Assembly (NCBI GenBank): GCA_003339415.1
Contig: PDHQ01000352.1
Coordinates: 1-32,904 of the forward strand
DNA from: Ophiocordyceps camponoti-saundersi (nom. inval.)
Lineage: Eukaryota > Ascomycota > Sordariomycetes > Hypocreales > Ophiocordycipitaceae
Direction: 5' to 3'
Length of the DNA: 32,904 nt
Below are positions 9,629 through 22,054 of this stretch, piece by piece (position 1 is the first letter of the stretch; each line of letters opens with the position of its first letter). The notes beneath the pieces are model-generated. The model saw nothing but the letters and a program-made list of their open reading frames with translations. It did no database searches and was not told where the DNA came from. The translations under genes and the position numbers were made by a program.

Positions 9629-12600
9629 ATGCGTGTCCTCGCGTCCGTCGGGGTCCTGGCGGCCAGCGGCATCTTCCTCCATGGCTCGCCTGCCCATGCA
9701 GCTGGCTACGGGTGAGAGCTCAATCTGACCTTTCGTAGGTGGCAGTGCTTTTCTGACGATGGTGCTCAGATCCTCCGACGGCGGCTCTGAGGCCGAAACC
9801 TATGGCGAGCCGAGCCGTGATACCCAAGGCGAAGGCCCATCTGCCACTCTGGAGAGCTTGCCGGACGGTCCAAAGTGTACGGCTCGGACGGACACGACTA
9901 CTGTCTTTATAACCGTCTACCCAACCAGCCCTGCATCTGCCGATGATTCCATCTCGGCTGCCAGTGCATCTGAACACGCTACCCACCACACTTTCCATCA
10001 TCACCCGGGCGGCCACTCGTCGCTCCATTCAGTCTCCATCTGGACCACCGTCACGTGGGACTTGTCTGGCGTCAGTGCTGGTGTCAACGGCGGATCTGGC
10101 TCTCCTTTCTCCGGCATTGATGCTACTGCTTCCTCTCTCGTGAATGGCGCCTCTCCAACGACGCACGACTCTCCTGAAGGCGACTACGGCGGTGCCACTG
10201 GTTCTGCCGCCGCCGCCGGTTGGCCGCGACCGACTGTTACGTCCGATGCCACCAGTCCTGATGAGAGTGGTGCCTCTGGCGGCGACTCGGTTTTGCCCTT
10301 TGGCACGGGCTTGTCGATTGCTTCCGATGGATCCCCTTCTGCCTACGGTTCCGCTCAAGAAGCTGAAGCCACTCCCTCCAATCACGTTTCTTTCGGTGAC
10401 GGAGGCAACTCTGCTCGGCAGACGGTGGTGACTGACACTGAAGTTCACTGGTACCCTGGACCTTCGGGCCCGACTCCTGTCACTGTTCTGTCGGAGCACA
10501 CCATCTTCGGAGCCGGCCCTGCGCAGGCCTCTGCTGCCGGTGAGCCTGTGACCTGTCTCACCACGACTGGCCCCGACGGGCGTACCACTGTGTTCCAGTG
10601 GCCGTCTGGAACCCCGCGAGCAAGCGTTGGCCCCGTGGTGTCGACTGCCGGTATGCCTGACGACAATGGCGATGCCGGCGCTCAGGCCTTCTCCACTCTC
10701 ATCGCTCCCGCCTCGGCTGGTGCTGCCTCGACGACGTGCACAACGTACACTGTTCTCGGTACTGATGGCGTGCCCACCGTCGTCCATTCGTCTTGGCTCG
10801 TCTCTCAAGCCGCCCCGGTCACCGCCGCTCCCGGCTCCCAGCCTTCCGGCGTCTCTGGCCCGGTTTCTGCCCAGAATGGCCCCAACGGCGCCGGCGTTAC
10901 GACCTGCACCAGCTACACTCTTCTCGGAACCGATGGGAGACTGACAGTCGTAGAGTCCACAGTCGTCCTTCCCGGAACTGCGGGCATTCAAGGCGGAGAT
11001 GTTCCCGGCGGAGCTCCATCTCAGGTAACGTCTTTGACGGGCGGGTCCGTTCCTGTTCAGCCCGGTGAACACCAACTTCCGGGAGGCGGCCATGTGACCT
11101 GCACCACCTTCACCGTCCTCGGTTCCGATGGCCGTCCGACCGTTGTCGACACCACATTTGTTGCTCCCGGGCCCGCCGCCACTCCGGTCACCACCATCGC
11201 CGCCGGAGACGTCTTCACGGGCGTGCCGTCGCAGATCACCGGCTCGGCCGTTCTTCCCCAGCCCGGAAGCCCTGATGCCCAGGGCGTCACGACATGCATC
11301 ACTTTTACCACGGTCGGGCCTGACGGCAAGCCGACTGCTGTCGAGTCTACCGTGGTAATCCCTGCAACGGTCGTGCCTGGAGGTGCCTTCACTGGTGCAC
11401 CCGCTCAGATCACCAATTCTGCTGTCCTTCCCCAACCTGCCGAAGGCGCTGGTGCCCAGGGCGTCACGACGTGTATCACCTTCATCACGGTTGGGCCTGA
11501 CGGCAAGCCGACTGCGGTCGAGTCTACCGTGGTGATCCCTGCAACAATCGTGCCCGTAGGCTCCTTCACAGGTGTACCCTCTCAGATCACCGACTCTGCT
11601 GTCCTTCCTCAGCCCGCCGCCGGAGGAGCGAGTGCTCAGGGCGTCACGACATGCATCACTTTCACCACCCTCGGGCCTGACGGGAAGCCGACTGTGGTAG
11701 AGTCCACCCTCGTGGTGCCTGCGGCAACGCCAGTGCCTGGAGGTGCCTTCACTGGTGCACCCTCTCAAATCACCGACTCTGCTGTTCTCCCCCAACCCGC
11801 CGCTGGAAGCGCTGGTAACCAGGGCGTCACGACGTGCATCACCCTCACCACTCTCGGGCCTGACGGGAAGCCAACTGTGGTAGAGTCCACCTTCGTGGTG
11901 CCTGCGGCAACGCCTGTGCCTGGAGGTGCCTTCACTGGTGCACCCTCTCAAATCACCGACTCTGCTGTTCTCCCCCAACCCGCCGCTGGAGGCGCTGGTA
12001 ACCAGGGCGTCACGACGTGCATTACCCTCACCACCCTTGGACCTGACGGGAAGCCGACCGTGGTCGAGTCTACCATTGTGGTGCCTACCAGCAGTGCCTT
12101 GTTCCCGGGCACCGTGCTCGGCCTCCCGCCATTCGCCAGCGCGCAGCCCTCCAATCTGCCACAAGGGGCTCCTCTGTTCACGTCTCTCGGCAGCCCCTTG
12201 ACCACTTGCCTCACATTTGACGTTCTGGGACCCAACGGTGCCGCCACACCTGTCGTTCGGACGGTCGTCTTGACGCCCTCGGCCGCTCCAAGCGTAACAA
12301 CACTTGGCTATCCCTCGATCACGGCGCAGCAGCAGGCAACGGATCTTCCTCAGGGTGTCCCGCCCTTCGCCCCCTACAATGGCAACGGCGCAATCACGAC
12401 TTCCCTCACGATGTACAGTCTTGGACCCAATGGCGTCGTCACTCCTGTCGTACAGACCGTAGTCCTGACCCCGAGCGCCGCGGCTCTCGGCCTGCCCACT
12501 GCGCCTCAGGCCCCGAACGCTTCTGGGTTGACGCTGCAGCCGCCCGGCCCGGTCGTACCAGTTGGCTCACCCACCACTTTGGCCCCTGGTGTTCCCAGTC

Positions 12601-14049
12601 TCAGCGCCTACGGACCGGACGCACCTGACGCCCAGTCCGTTGTGCCTCCTCCTGGTCTTGTGTCCGGACTCAACGTGGGGACTTTGACGGGACCGCTCAC
12701 GACTGTTCTCACCTTGGTCCCCGGGCAACTAGGCGCTTCAGGTGCCGCTGGCCTTCCCTTTCCCTACGACGGGTCCGCTGGCACGGGAGTCTCGGCGGCT
12801 GGTGTCGGTGCTCAACCCGGCGATGTCAACCACAACGGCTACGGATGGAGTACCCCCAGCGCAGGTCCCTATGGACCGTTGTCTTCGCCTGTCGTGCCCC
12901 AACCTCTCTTGACGGTGACGACGCTGCAGACTCTCACCTGGACCAACTTCATCCCGGAGCCGACGACGACGTACACCATGAACTTTCCCCTGACGACACT
13001 AGAGACGGTGACTATCTCTGCCCCGCTTGGAAAGCGTCTTCGCCGACGCCAGCAGAGGTTCGTCGGCATCATCTCCCTTTCGCCTTCACGAAAACTGACT
13101 TCGACACAGTTCCCTGCTCCTGGATCCCTCGTGGAGCAATGCCACCGCGTTTGTACCGCCCGTCGCGCCGGTTCCCACTCCAGTTCCGGACGTCCCTGTC
13201 TCGGCGGCCTCGCTCGTGCCAGTCGTTCCCAGTTCGGTGTGTCCCTTTGGAGGCAAGGTCGGCAATGTGACTGTAAACGTGAGTGCCGCACTTCGACGCA
13301 GAGCAAAGACAGGACATGCACTGACCCGCGCGCAGTTTGACGACGTCAAACCCGGCCCTCTGTTCAACCCCTCTGGGGACGTGTGGTTCTCGGAAGGCTT
13401 CCTCGTCGCACCTCCTGCGGCGCAGATCGCCCAGTCCTTTGTCCCGTCGTCTGGCGGTCAGCTCGTAGAGTTCGTGCCACCTTCGCTCGCCAGCTTGCCT
13501 ATCGGCCACCAGGGATCGGGTGACAGAGCGGAAGTGGGAGTCGGCCCCAACGCGCCCAAGCCCTGCTTCAGGTTCGACTTCTTCAGCGCCGAGCTTGGAT
13601 GCGCCGCCACGGCGGTCGAAGGTTGGTGTGAGTTCGAAGTAGCGGCCTACAGGTACGAACCTGCCGCCACATTTGAGCAGTCGATTGCCTGGTCGGAGAC
13701 GAAGCGTGTACCGGCCTGCCCCAGCTTCCCCAGCGGCAGCTGTGCCCTGACGCCGGTGACTTTTGAGGGCTACAACAACATCTCGTCGGTTCTCATCAAT
13801 GTCCGCGTCGGCCTCGAGATGCGGGCTTGGTGGGGCGATGACTTCAAGTTTGGCTGGACTGACAACAGCTGCGAAGCGGCGAACTGCCGGGCGCAGACGA
13901 CTCCGCAGCACGTCAAGCGTGAGACTGTCGAGCTGGCCCTTCGTCGCGGGATCTGGCACTGGACCTCTGCCGGCTTGCAGCGGCTGGACGATGACTACAT
14001 CAGGGAGTCGGCTTATTCAAGGGGGGTAAAGGGGTTGAGGATGAAGTAG
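9629..14049 (+). CDS. Large secreted repeat-rich cell-surface protein
   Basis: Predicted exons 9629-9711, 9770-13057, 13110-13278 and 13336-14049 give 1417 residues in a consistent frame. Introns are 58, 52 and 57 nt, each with a CTGAC branch and CAG acceptor. Exon 1 encodes a signal peptide (MRVLASVGVLAASGIF..., cleavage likely near the AHA-A site). Residues of about 30-285 are Ser/Gly/Thr-rich. About eleven repeats follow (around 285-935), each with a core like TTCITFTTLGPDGKPTVVES. A Pro/Gly-rich spacer then leads to a C-terminal domain (about 1165-1417) that opens with CPFGG and GNVTVNFDDV and carries many Cys. That end resembles uncharacterised domains found at the end of fungal Thr-rich surface proteins (possibly DUF7371; from memory). 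An adhesin or wall role is inferred. No GPI signal is seen. Confidence 0.82.
11284..12100 (+). repeat. Near-identical coding tandem repeats (about 177-183 bp period)
   Basis: The phrase GCGTCACGAC recurs at 11284, 11461, 11641, 11824 and 12007, so five highly similar units have periods of 177, 180, 183 and 183 bp, all multiples of three. More diverged units extend the array on both sides, from about 10530 to 12480. The high DNA identity of the central units suggests recent duplication or gene conversion. Confidence 0.92.
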
Positions 14050-14717: not shown

Positions 14718-14990
14718 TCATTTATAGCTCTGGATGGCGTCTTCCTGGAGATGGGAGGAGTCTCGCTTATAGCTTTGGATCATGTCTTCATGAACGTCTG
14801 TCATGCCTCGTTTATAACTCTGGATGGCGTCTTGATCGGCTATCATATAACACATTTAGTCAGAGTCAGGAACATGGCAACTCGAGAGAAAAGCAGCAGC
14901 ATGGTGTGATGGGCCCAACTCACGGTGAATAGGCTGAGCCAGAGCGACGGCCACCAGCGACAGGAGAGTGACGAAGTTGGAGCTAAGCAT
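14718..14990 (-). CDS. Putative Kex2-processed repeat RiPP precursor (dikaritin/ustiloxin-like)
   Basis: Exons 14990-14924 and 14839-14718 (minus strand) give 62 residues. The 84-nt intron has donor GTGAGT, branch CTGAC and acceptor TAG. Exon 1 encodes a clear signal peptide (MLSSNFVTLLSLVAVALAQP). Exon 2 is essentially three tandem 15-residue repeats with cores DAIQSYK, DMIQSYK and DAIQSYK. The first two cores are followed by Arg, making the dibasic KR site cut by Kex2 in the Golgi. The third ends at TGA. Signal peptide, acidic spacer, Tyr-containing core and KR is the architecture of dikaritin precursors such as UstA. Each core holds both Ile and Tyr, the residue types cross-linked in ustiloxin. 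The gene is divergent from a UstYa-like oxidase 401 bases away, which strongly supports the call. Product structure and activity are unknown. The small size and the TGA leave open partial loss of function. Confidence 0.82.
14721..14839 (-). repeat. Three 45-bp coding repeats in the RiPP precursor
   Basis: The Tyr codons of the three cores start at 14816, 14771 and 14726, exactly 45 bases apart. The core DNA (GCCATCCAGAGYTATAAA in copies 1 and 3) is nearly identical, while the 24-base spacers differ. This pattern fits selection on the core or duplication followed by spacer divergence. Confidence 0.93.
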
Positions 14991-15391
14991 GATGATGAAA
15001 TTCAGGGTCTGACGATGTGAGCGAGTTGAAGTTGTTGGGAAAGAGTTGTCTCCTATGGGAACGGTCTATGTACGCAGCTTTTATGCACACACGCTGGGGC
15101 CTTCATCATCGATCGTGGCTGGCCCATACGATGCGAGGTCTATCGATGAATAATGATATCAAAAGGTCACAGTCGTCAGTTGATGGCGCTCGTATCGGCA
15201 GAAATATTGCCTATATCGTATATATTAAACGTTATATCGAGTAGGTGGATGGTAGTTCAGCTTCGTATCATGGCGAGCGTTTGACGCCATGGTATAGACT
15301 ATAGAGGAAGACTGTCGTGATAACTCTACGTTTGGTCAACTCCTTTTTTCCCTCTCGACGGTCACGGAACTTGTCTTTATCGCCGGTAGAT
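14991..15391. promoter_or_regulatory. Bidirectional promoter of the RiPP precursor/UstYa pair
   Basis: 401 bases separate the two divergent starts. On the minus strand a TATA-like CATAAAAG lies at 15085-15078, about 90 bases upstream of the precursor ATG. On the plus strand TATATTAAA at 15221-15229 lies about 165 bases upstream of the oxidase ATG. The region is AT-richer than its flanks. A shared promoter would co-regulate precursor and modifying enzyme, as is common in fungal RiPP clusters. Confidence 0.6.
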
Positions 15392-16339
15392 ATGGAATCA
15401 TTAGATATGGAATCATCTGAGTCTCTCTTGACCGAGTTCGAGGGAAAGCACCCATTTCGAGAGCGACAAGCTCGGCGCTGGTGGCAGCACTGGGTCGTTT
15501 CTATCATCCTCTTGACCGTCTATAGCATCCTGCTGATACTAACCGGTGCCAACTTCTGGGGCTCAAACAAGGGTGATGATGGTGATGGGTTCATGACTTA
15601 CAGTATGTGAGGTACGCTGCTGGAAGCTTGGAGAGCAAAGAAAAAGACTAATTGCTGGGAAACCGTCAGCACCGGCCAGAGAAGCCGTCAAGTTCCATCA
15701 AGTCCGCTTCGACGGCTCTCTCGGCCTACGCAGCCGGTACACGGGAGAGCCTCGCGAAGAGACGGAGTCGTCATGGGGCCGACTCTTCCAGCACTATAAC
15801 ATCCGCTTCACGGCGGAGGAGATGCGAAGGATGAACCGCTCGGCGCTGGAGTTGCGCAACGGAGGGGGCTTCTACGGCCAGCTGAGCGCTTACCATCACC
15901 TCCACTGCCTCAAGATGCTTCGGCGGGTGGTGTGGCACGATCGATACAACGTTAGTATCGTCGAGATGAGGCATCACGCTGATCATTGCATTGAGGATAT
16001 TCGTCAGTCGCTCATGTGTCATGCTGATCTTTCCGTCGTCACTTTTGACTGGTTGCCTCGTAGACGGAAGCCTTGGCCTGACTTTCGTGTGGATCAGACT
16101 TGTGTTGATTGGGAGGCGTTGGATCAGTGGGCGGCTAAGAGGTCGTTTTCTATATTTGATCAGAAGACGTTGGTTCATCCTCAGCTTGGTTTGTTTTCCT
16201 ATCCTGTCTTTGTGATTTTGCTGTTGCTGTGGCTGATTGGAAGTGAGTAGGGATTTCGTTTCCGGAGGTTGATGGGAAGATTGTGGTTGAGGAGCGGGAT
16301 ATGGCTCCGGTGTGGCCGGCGGATGGTGACGGAGGATGA
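15392..16339 (+). CDS. UstYa-like (DUF3328) RiPP-modifying oxidase
   Basis: Exons 15392-15602, 15670-16188 and 16251-16339 give 272 residues. Intron 1 is 67 nt (GTATGT...ACTAAT...CAG, phase 1). Intron 2 is 62 nt (GTTTGT...GCTGAT...TAG, phase 1). A short cytosolic N-terminus is followed by one membrane helix (about residues 34-51, VVSIILLTVYSILLIL), so this is a type II membrane protein. The lumenal part has the family's two HxxHC motifs: YHHLHC (H146-C150) and HHADHC (H173-C177), followed by IEDIRQSLMCHAD. A family-typical PAREAVKFHQVRF segment lies just after the helix. UstYa-type proteins are copper-dependent oxidases that form the Tyr ether cyclisation in ustiloxin, phomopsin, asperipin and cyclochlorotine pathways. 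Both motifs are intact, so an active enzyme is expected. Without intron 2 the frame would end at 16250 with an atypical hydrophobic tail. Confidence 0.9.
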
Positions 16340-18273: not shown

Positions 18274-19684
18274 ATGAAGTCCGTCTTTTTCGTCAGTATC
18301 CTCCTTGCTGGAGCGGCATCGCAACGTCCTCCTATTGCGTCTGGCAGAGTCACATGGAAAGACTCCGGTAAGTCGGACGTTTTACCTTGGGCCCTATCTT
18401 CCCTCACCTATCTGACTATGCTGGACGGTTTCAGAAGAGGAGAATCTTGACTATACGCCCTCCTACACGCTGCCGACGATGCCAAATATCGATGGTATCT
18501 TGATCGTGTTGGAACCGCTTGTTCATCCTCAGTCGCCCGCTTCACCGCAGCCAACAGCCGTCCAATCCTCGGAAGAAGACGAAAAGTCTAAGACGAAGAA
18601 GCGCAAGAAGCATAGGAGGCTCGGGAAACACAGGAAGTCAAAGAGGCTCGGGAGACACAGAAAGTCAAGGAGGCTCGGGAAGCACAGGAAGCTAAAGAAG
18701 CTGAGGAAAAATGGGAAACAGTGGAAGATCAGGAAGCAGCTCGCGGAGGCGGCCAAGATGTTGATGGAAGAAGCAAGCCTGGAAGTGAAGCAGTCGCTTC
18801 CTAAGATGCCCGCGCCGGAAATCCTACTAGAAGCAGACCCCGAAGACGACAGGATTGCAAAGATCGTCTACCGAGGCGACGAGAGACCGCCGTGGATGCT
18901 GCGAGCACTGGGCGGGATCCCGGCCGAGTTTGAAGGCCCGGTGGTGAACGCGTCGTTTAGCTTGGAGGCTCATCATCTGGTCGACGGTCGATGGCGGAAC
19001 TTTAGATCGGCTTATACGACGACGGCGAGGAGGTTTGGTAGCGCTGCTCTCTGGGCTGCTGATCCGAGAGTTTCCGACGGATGGATCTACATGATTCATG
19101 CTACGCCCAACATGATTAACTTGACCGACTCGGGCTTCTCGCTCACTTACAAGGCCGAGACGGAGATTTCGGCCTTGGGAGGAATCCGCTGGGATCAGAT
19201 CATGGCTTGGACTCACGTTCCCATGTACGACAGGCCCGTTGTCAACCCGAGAGATATGTGCAGCTTGTTTCTTGAGAATCCATTCCTTCCCAAGTCGTGG
19301 ATTGCAAATGGTGAGTATAATCACGGTTACGATCTCTACTACTCCAGCGAGGGTCAGCCGCAGCTTGGGGTAGAGTACAACGTGGACGGTGACGAGGACG
19401 ACGTTGATGAGGACGACGGTGATGAGGACGTCGGTGATGAGGACGACAACGGTGATGAGGAGAGGCAGCAGAGGATATCGCTTGAGCAGCATGCGCTCGA
19501 GTTCATGAGGAAGAATGGACGGGTTGTTGGTTGGGACGAGGACTCGTTTCCGTTTCTTAACCTCTCGGCTCCGACTGGTCCCTGGCCTGGACCGTTTCCG
19601 CTGAATGCTACTGAGGCTGCGTACATTCGGGGGTCACAGCCGTTGTGTATTGACCCTGGAAGTGACTCTTGGAAGTGGCCATAA
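18274..19684 (+). CDS. Secreted heat-labile enterotoxin A-subunit-like ADP-ribosyltransferase
   Basis: Exons 18274-18367 and 18435-19684 give 447 residues. The 67-nt phase-1 intron has GTAAGT, CTGAC and CAG. The protein starts with a signal peptide (MKSVFFVSILLAGAASQ), then a strongly basic, repeat-like stretch (about 75-130, with RLGKHRKS-type units). The catalytic domain follows with all three elements of the R-S-E class: YRGDERPP (R178), the YTTT strand (225-228) and an ExE pair (E273, E275) just before ISALGGI. Proteins of this type transfer ADP-ribose from NAD+ to host proteins; fungal copies are numerous in insect pathogens. The catalytic residues look intact. A very acidic Asp/Glu repeat follows (about 348-376). 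No B-subunit gene is nearby, as is usual in fungi. The host target is unknown. Confidence 0.87.
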
Positions 19685-21319: not shown

Positions 21320-21451
21320 TCTGATATCGTCCACTATGCCTCGTGCCTTGTCGACTGCCTCGTCAACTGACTGGGACAATCTCACAATGCCTCATTCTCT
21401 CTTCTTCGCAAGGCGGACAAAGCTGCTGGTGAATACGTGCAACAGATAAGC

Positions 21452-21458
21452 TATATAA
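21452..21458 (+). promoter_or_regulatory. TATA box of the small secreted-protein gene
   Basis: TATATAA, 117 bases upstream of the ATG at 21575. It is followed by a CA/CT-rich leader with repeated CTCATCTCA-like sequence, typical of a strong fungal promoter. Confidence 0.55.
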
Positions 21459-21574
21459 GATGGAGAGAAATCTCCTCTGGAATGCAACCTTTTCTCATCT
21501 CATCTCACCATCACACTCTCTTCACTACAAAGCAACAAGCAAACACACAGCAGCTATCACCGCTCTCTACAACC

Positions 21575-22054
21575 ATGTTTCACAATCGTTGGACTCTTTT
21601 CCTTCTCTCGGTCGCTGCTCTCCTCTTCCTCTGGCCGGGGAACAGCTACGCCGCACCGCCCGGCATAGGATCATCTCGCGGTTCCTACAGCTTCAATTCG
21701 GGATCTCGTAACCCCGGATCTTCAGGCGCGGGTGGTGCCATTAGACCTGCTACGGAGAGGCGTCCCGTCACGTTTGGACGCGGAGGCGCGATGATGCCCT
21801 TCTCTACTCGGCCTCGTCCCAGCGACTCTTCCTCTTCCTCTTCTTCGCCCGGCGGTGGCGGCTCTTCTTCCGGAAGGGATAGGCCTCCTTCTTTCAACGA
21901 CGCCGTCTTCCCCGGTAGGAACCCCGGTCCTCCCCCGGACTACAGCCGGACCCCGCCTCCGCCACGGTTCGGCCCGTCCAAGAAGCCGCCTACCTCTTTC
22001 GATGCTCCCCCTCCTTATGGCAACGGCAAGGATTCCAAGGACAAGGGGAAATGA
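21575..22054 (+). CDS. Small secreted Pro/Ser/Gly-rich protein
   Basis: Single exon of 159 residues. The first 27 or so residues form a good signal peptide (MFHNRWTLFLLSVAALLFLW... ending NSYA-A). The mature part is disordered: Gly/Ser/Arg-rich, then a Ser run (SSSSSS), GGGGSSSG, and a Pro-rich end with several PP motifs and a Lys/Asp/Gly tail. No Cys is seen in the mature part, so it is not a disulfide-rich effector. No family is recognised. Its position after the enterotoxin-like gene and the clear TATA box suggest another secreted accessory product. A wall-associated or host-contact role is possible, but nothing in the sequence shows a function. Confidence 0.75.
   Translation: MFHNRWTLFLLSVAALLFLWPGNSYAAPPGIGSSRGSYSFNSGSRNPGSSGAGGAIRPATERRPVTFGRGGAMMPFSTRPRPSDSSSSSSSPGGGGSSSGRDRPPSFNDAVFPGRNPGPPPDYSRTPPPPRFGPSKKPPTSFDAPPPYGNGKDSKDKGK

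Follow-up and report, generated by a model that had tools for sequence, protein, structure and literature searches.

A probable UstYa-type RiPP locus in Ophiocordyceps camponoti-saundersi, with a tyrosine-containing repeat precursor divergent from its oxidase gene

Introduction

The ustiloxin and phomopsin loci combine a Kex2-repeat precursor with an oxidase of the UstYa family, and they also have a tyrosinase and 2 or 5 DUF3328 genes (PMC7329392). The same survey names the tyrosinase as required for these compounds and not for asperipin-2a. In the ustiloxin and phomopsin cores Tyr is N-terminal and Ile internal (PMC9233826), and in the phomopsin pathway UstYa homologues carry out desaturation of residues as well (PMC10512285). 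The asperipin-2a pathway has a single DUF3328 gene (PMC7329392) and is reported to take four genes for heterologous production (PMC10512285). Its product is bicyclic, with two linkages (PMC9233826), and its ether between the Tyr oxygen and the Phe beta-carbon is made by a UstY enzyme that uses a dicopper site and oxygen (PMC12186524). The epichloecyclins, cyclic nonapeptides derived from GigA of Epichloe, arise from a precursor with a secretory leader, short imperfect repeats and likely Kex2 processing, and their core has an N-terminal Ile with Tyr after it (PMC9233826). In victorin, a C-terminal aromatic residue is joined to an internal aliphatic one (PMC9233826).

Precursors of this kind have been surveyed by Umemura, who searched annotated proteins for at least three tandem repeats of at least eight residues between Kex2 sites (PMC7329392). 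Of 7878 Kex2-repeat proteins in that survey, 1758 lie near DUF3328 genes, which are commonest at the position adjoining the precursor, and Tyr occurs in 65.6% of the repeats near DUF3328 genes vs 38.2% of the other repeats (PMC7329392). The survey's G-6 and G-10, both Tyr-containing types, include Ophiocordyceps. Beauveria bassiana, a pathogen of insects, expresses three genes with the annotation oxidase ustYa 3-10 fold more strongly inside the insect than it does in culture (PMC12142624).

Here we describe a precursor and oxidase gene pair in a window of 32,904 bases, which is the whole of contig C280 in the genome of Ophiocordyceps camponoti-saundersi (Hypocreales; 45.7 Mb in 733 contigs). 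We take this species to be a zombie-ant fungus. The pair shares a Kex2-repeat precursor and a UstYa-family oxidase with the ustiloxin and phomopsin loci, although its core has the reverse order of Tyr and Ile. Like the asperipin-2a pathway it has one DUF3328 gene, and it differs from that pathway in its core. Its putative leader, short imperfect repeats, likely Kex2 processing and the placing of Ile before Tyr recall the epichloecyclins, which have another core; the present precursor has only three repeats.

Results

Precursor gene

The precursor gene lies on the minus strand and was modelled from its open frames as a putative signal-peptide exon, an 84-base intron and a repeat exon, which together encode 62 residues. 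Exon 1 (14924..14990) begins with the ATG at 14990 and encodes MLSSNFVTLLSLVAVALA-QPIH, of which the N-terminal part up to the Q looks by eye like a signal peptide once the modelled splice has been made. The intron (14840..14923; donor 14923, acceptor 14840) reads GTGAGT...TAG and contains two CTGAC branch-like motifs, with the A at 26 and 20 bases from its 3' end. Exon 2 (14718..14839) encodes three 15-residue repeats, which begin at residues 26, 41 and 56 and share the unit D[A/M]IQSYK. Core 1 (DAIQSYK, 14811..14831) and core 2 (DMIQSYK, 14766..14786) run into KR sites at 14808-14813 and 14763-14768, respectively, and core 3 (DAIQSYK, 14721..14741) is directly followed by the stop codon (14718-14720), which leaves the last repeat without its Arg. 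Among the splice pairs tried, two gave a product that starts at the ATG at 14990 and ends in IQSYK; the second of them, with its acceptor at 14831, removes the D from core 1. By inspection, a TATA-like CATAAAAG stands about 90 bases upstream of the ATG on the minus strand. Re-deriving the gene model reproduced the length, the 15-residue repeats, the two KR sites and the intron coordinates that the initial annotation had given, and likewise its 401-base spacing to the oxidase and the two HxxHC motifs of the latter.

To judge the repeats against chance, we used a pattern that was set after the feature had been seen, namely three equally spaced 6-mers that are identical at 5/6 positions or more and are each followed by K or R. 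When the window was shuffled 100 times under a first-order Markov model, no shuffle gave such a triple, and the real window has three triple rows, comprising the precursor and two overlapping rows in a Lys/Arg-rich tract of the open reading frame at 18416-19684. Over the three copies of the seven-codon core, three codons vary silently (Q, CAG/CAA; S, AGT/AGC; K, AAA/AAG), one carries a replacement (A/M) and three are invariant, in a sequence where 10 of the 63 possible single-base changes are silent. In contrast, spacers 2 and 3 differ by replacements in six of seven codons, with no silent change. Although the numbers are small, this difference suggests constraint on the core peptide. The analysis confirms that the repeats and their reading frame are real and non-random.

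The precursor had no match in the protein collection, and a search of the whole genome with the precursor as query found no second copy. The first of these results says little about relatives, because so small a split gene easily goes unannotated, and it agrees with the earlier expectation that automated annotation would miss the gene.

Oxidase gene and its conservation

The oxidase gene is on the plus strand, divergent from the precursor, with 401 bases between the two start codons (14991..15391). Its model has three exons and encodes 272 amino acids: exon 1 (15392..15602) covers the N-terminal tail and a putative membrane anchor, which corresponds to a helix at residues 23-48 in a low-confidence structural model of the relative P0002; exon 2 (15670..16188) holds the catalytic domain and matches the Pfam family UstYa (PF11807, DUF3328) with a score of 159.4 bits, where the cut-off is 25; and exon 3 (16251..16339) encodes a C-terminal part (GISFPEVDGKI...) common to relatives. 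Both HxxHC motifs, HHLHC (15894..15908) and HADHC (15975..15989), are nearly invariant among the relatives. Other splice pairs are open too, and those of the model were chosen because relatives read the same. The public model CP533_6230 (P0001), which is 92% identical to ours, misplaces the first intron (15603-15669) and carries an insert where the relatives P0002 and P0004 have TYTPAREAV.

At E up to 1e-3, the protein collection contains 22 homologues of the oxidase. Six are Ophiocordyceps entries with 60-92% identity, in which 92% is the window's own protein and other Ophiocordyceps reach up to 85%. Oxidases of Nemania sp. FL0916, Lasiosphaeris, Neopestalotiopsis, Canariomyces and Cytospora are 60-72% identical over 68-96% of the query, and the remaining homologues are less similar, down to 23%. 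The O. australis protein is 74% identical to the present oxidase, compared with 43% (over 80 residues) to the best paralogue of that oxidase in the O. camponoti-saundersi genome, which suggests that the Ophiocordyceps and other Sordariomycetes oxidases are likely orthologues of the present UstYa. Because the oxidase is kept in other Ophiocordyceps and in several other Sordariomycetes, it is not special to ant pathogens, which argues against an ant-specific toxin and speaks for a general role.

Surroundings and classification of the locus

To characterise the contig, we ran Pfam scans on 24 ORF stretches drawn from 115 listed ORFs of at least 100 amino acids, many of which are shadow frames. 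Half of the stretches (12/24) match a family (COG5, gelsolin, DUF2434 in two, DUF7371, EI24, UstYa, Enterotoxin_a, CorA, DNA ligase, UPRTase and CrcB), and the other 12 match none. Within these 24 stretches we recognised neither a methyltransferase nor a transporter or a peptidase; genes of many small exons could escape such a scan. No tyrosinase was found on this contig, the six matches in the genome being on C562, C22, C720, C733 and C112, and the contig has no second DUF3328 gene, with one found in only 32,904 bases. Since no tailoring enzyme was recognised in the scanned stretches and the tyrosinases are on other contigs, precursor and oxidase appear to form a unit of two genes among mostly ordinary ones.

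Several neighbours deserve description in their own right. About 2 kb from the UstYa gene, the ORF at 18416-19684 (+), which holds the Lys/Arg-rich repeat tract mentioned above, matches Enterotoxin_a at 43.5 bits (cut-off 21); genes like the heat-labile enterotoxin alpha chain are reported to be numerous in ant-infecting Ophiocordyceps (PMC7341126). A very long Ser/Thr/Pro-rich frame with tandem repeats (9729-14049, +) runs into the DUF7371 match in another frame, and the two are perhaps one intron-split cell-surface protein. A short Gly/Ser/Pro-rich, secreted-looking protein without a Pfam family is encoded at 21371-22054 (+).

The class of the locus depends on the definition used. In one account of UstYa-type RiPPs, DUF3328 is the class-defining enzyme (PMC12048977). 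Among the marks of that class, a DUF3328 protein with two HxxHC motifs and repeated cores with Kex2 sites (three cores, two KR sites) are present here; the N-terminal signal peptide of the precursor is putative, and a cross-linked or desaturated peptide would be the predicted product of the oxidase. The dikaritins in the sense of Ding are defined there by five kinds of gene, including a tyrosinase and multiple DUF3328 genes. With no tyrosinase and a single DUF3328 gene on the contig, and no methyltransferase, transporter or peptidase recognised in the 24 scanned stretches, the locus falls outside that five-gene definition. The initial annotation had called it a minimal dikaritin-type RiPP locus, of which the repeat precursor with KR sites beside a UstYa gene stands and the dikaritin label, in Ding's sense, does not. 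When set beside the survey of Umemura, the precursor has three repeats, of which the first has the putative signal peptide and the last the stop codon as its outer boundary. Cutting at KR or RR yields three fragments, where the criterion given by Le Marquer is at least four (PMC6339444).

A full-text search of the CC-licensed literature, with supplementary core tables outside its scope, returned no fungal paper for the cores IQSYK, AIQSY or IQSYKR, and we found no report of a comparable Ophiocordyceps locus in that literature. A related type may nevertheless be listed among G-6 and G-10, given that Ophiocordyceps is represented in both (PMC7329392). The locus had been described as apparently new; this holds for its core within the print searched, whereas its kind is known, as the many Kex2-repeat proteins near DUF3328 genes attest. 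Most likely, the locus adds a core not found in print to the known UstYa-type RiPPs.

Other UstYa loci of the genome

We also investigated whether other UstYa genes of this genome have repeat precursors nearby. A Pfam UstYa search gave 11 matches on six contigs, which we grouped as eight genes at seven places, and the Kex2-repeat scan covered the window and, for each of the six other places, flanks that reached about 10 kb at most in either direction and were shorter at contig ends. Repeat genes were found near UstYa at four of the seven places, the present locus included; two of the others are clear and one is weak. The scanned flanks on C104 and C201 contained no Kex2-bounded repeats, and those of the place at about 386 kb on C659 contained only loose matches, which we judged to be chance.

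The closest counterpart is on C15, where a gene at C15:100086-100594 (-), beside two UstYa genes, would encode 150 residues after splicing, with ten copies of EPDRHQSYI. It has the same layout as the present precursor (signal exon, short intron, repeats and last core directly at the stop), and its ten cores are identical in protein although all nine codon positions vary silently. The cores of the two genes have in common D-x-x-Q-S-Y, then 0 or 1 residue, then K or R. The C15 gene differs in its repeat period of 13-14 residues, in having His where the present core has Ile, and in the sites that follow its repeats: KR follows 3 of 10, RDN or RSN follows 6 of 10, and the last meets the stop codon, which suggests that C15 processing may differ. 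A tree of UstYa proteins gave no clear placing of the C15 UstYa and thus no support for common descent of the two pairs.

The second clear gene is on C659 (~61925-62692, -), about 3 kb from a UstYa gene, and has 15 DEAW units by a count of its frame, 10 of them grouped by the scanner. The units fall into two kinds, one DEAWKFHTAEKR-like and the other DEAWKFSTHxxKR-like. These units hold Trp, Phe and His and no Tyr; a signal-peptide-like stretch is present just upstream in another frame. The weak candidate, on C22 (~195065-195865, +), lies about 1 kb after a UstYa gene; it has a signal-peptide-like start, four RR-bounded units around SSNVTLH and a partial fifth, with Tyr in one unit. Among these three genes, only that on C15 has Tyr in every unit.

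Further background came from the other frames of the 144,924 scanned bases (overlaps included), with thresholds set once the finding was known. Outside the four repeat genes, a stricter scan for at least three units found a repeat ORF at C15 (L019:3558-6143) besides the Lys/Arg-rich tract that the window contains. A looser scan added other frames of the same repeats, an Arg-rich tract at C15 and two matches at the 386-kb place on C659, namely the units DDVSQAGL/DGLSRAGP/DELSLLGP (L027:4068-4298) and a pair in L027:4172-4261, both of which were set aside as chance.

Discussion

We consider it probable that this is a minimal UstYa-type RiPP locus, in which the oxidase cross-links the cores of the neighbouring precursor. 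What can be read directly from the DNA are the open frames, the gene models, the repeats with their KR sites, and the family and motifs of the oxidase. From these we propose that the transcript would be spliced as modelled and that the precursor would enter the ER through its putative signal peptide. In the Golgi, Kex2 would then cleave behind both KR sites to release three short peptides, which carboxypeptidase trimming may leave ending in D[A/M]IQSY. The UstYa protein, predicted to be membrane-anchored and, by analogy with its family, copper-dependent, would oxidise each core. Most likely the Tyr oxygen would be joined to the beta-carbon of an upstream residue, for which Ile is a candidate, as are Gln, Ser and Asp, and the resulting small cyclic peptide would be secreted. 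The ether between Ile and Tyr suggested in the initial annotation is a guess: the Ile-before-Tyr order of the epichloecyclins keeps it in play, and victorin offers a precedent for joining a C-terminal aromatic residue to an internal aliphatic one (PMC9233826). The His of the C15 core weighs against it, and D, Q and S, which both cores have, could serve Tyr as partner just as well.

The reading as a RiPP locus is supported by the non-random repeats, by a UstYa domain far above its cut-off with both HxxHC motifs kept in relatives, and by the further repeat precursors near other UstYa genes of the genome, among which the C15 gene shares layout and D-x-x-Q-S-Y. Precedent comes from the frequency of DUF3328 genes and of Tyr around surveyed precursors (PMC7329392) and from the ether made by the dicopper UstY enzyme (PMC12186524). 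Against it stand the presence of the oxidase in distant genera while the precursor is matched nowhere in the protein collection, a count of three repeats and two KR sites that is below Le Marquer's four fragments (PMC6339444), the lack of a tyrosinase on the contig and of another tailoring gene in the 24 stretches, and the restriction of Tyr in every unit to C15 among the other three repeat genes.

The same observations bear on other explanations. The precursor could yield unmodified linear secreted peptides, such as signals or pheromone-like peptides, while UstYa acts on something else. Most surveyed Kex2-repeat proteins (6120 of 7878) have no nearby DUF3328 gene (PMC7329392), and a widely conserved oxidase next to a precursor with no homologue in the protein collection would fit such a separation. 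However, the two genes are direct divergent neighbours 401 bases apart, Tyr is present in all three cores, other UstYa genes of this genome have repeat genes nearby as well, and pheromone-type precursors are described in the survey as without DUF3328 neighbours, with three exceptions (PMC7329392); we regard linear peptides as unlikely. It is distinctly improbable, in our view, that the precursor is a decaying or orphan gene, left over from one with more repeats, while the oxidase serves a different substrate encoded elsewhere in the genome. The three repeats, where dikaritin precursors average about five (PMC10512285), the missing Arg of the last repeat and the absence of homologues in the protein collection would fit a remnant, but the frame is open and the donor consensus-like, and in the larger C15 gene, too, the last core runs directly into the stop codon. 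The ratio of three silent changes to one replacement in the core, against replacements in 6/7 spacer codons, also suggests constraint, albeit from small numbers. That the repeats arose by chance in non-coding DNA is hardly credible: the gene is short and without a match in the protein collection, yet none of the 100 shuffles produced its pattern, the signal-peptide-like exon joins in frame, and the layout is that of the C15 precursor.

Beyond the preferred reading of a cross-linking UstYa-type locus, the data invite a wider and tentative one, possible rather than probable, in which D-x-x-Q-S-Y marks a family of UstYa substrates. A single ant-infecting fungus would hold two or more pairs of such a "DxxQSY" family, the present locus and C15, with Tyr at or next to the C-terminal end, and UstYa would close the ring in the direction opposite to that of the ustiloxins. 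Because the oxidases of Nemania, Lasiosphaeris and Canariomyces keep about 60% identity with that of Ophiocordyceps, matching precursors would then exist for many of the orphan UstYa genes in Sordariomycetes, and gene finders would miss them as they are intron-split, shorter than 70 residues and poor in KR sites. Such a peptide would act as a conserved signal or antimicrobial, secreted by the fungus, and not as a host-specific toxin.

If the locus is what we propose, it would add an unrecorded core to the fungal RiPPs, and it would mean that surveys of annotated proteins, as described for thresholds of at least three Kex2-bounded repeats (PMC7329392) or at least four fragments (PMC6339444), can overlook precursors that are small and split. 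Where a conserved UstYa gene has no known substrate, the pairing would become directly testable, by way of a tiny gene of signal exon, intron and repeats in the divergent promoter, and the three or four such loci in this ant fungus would be candidate sources of secreted small molecules.
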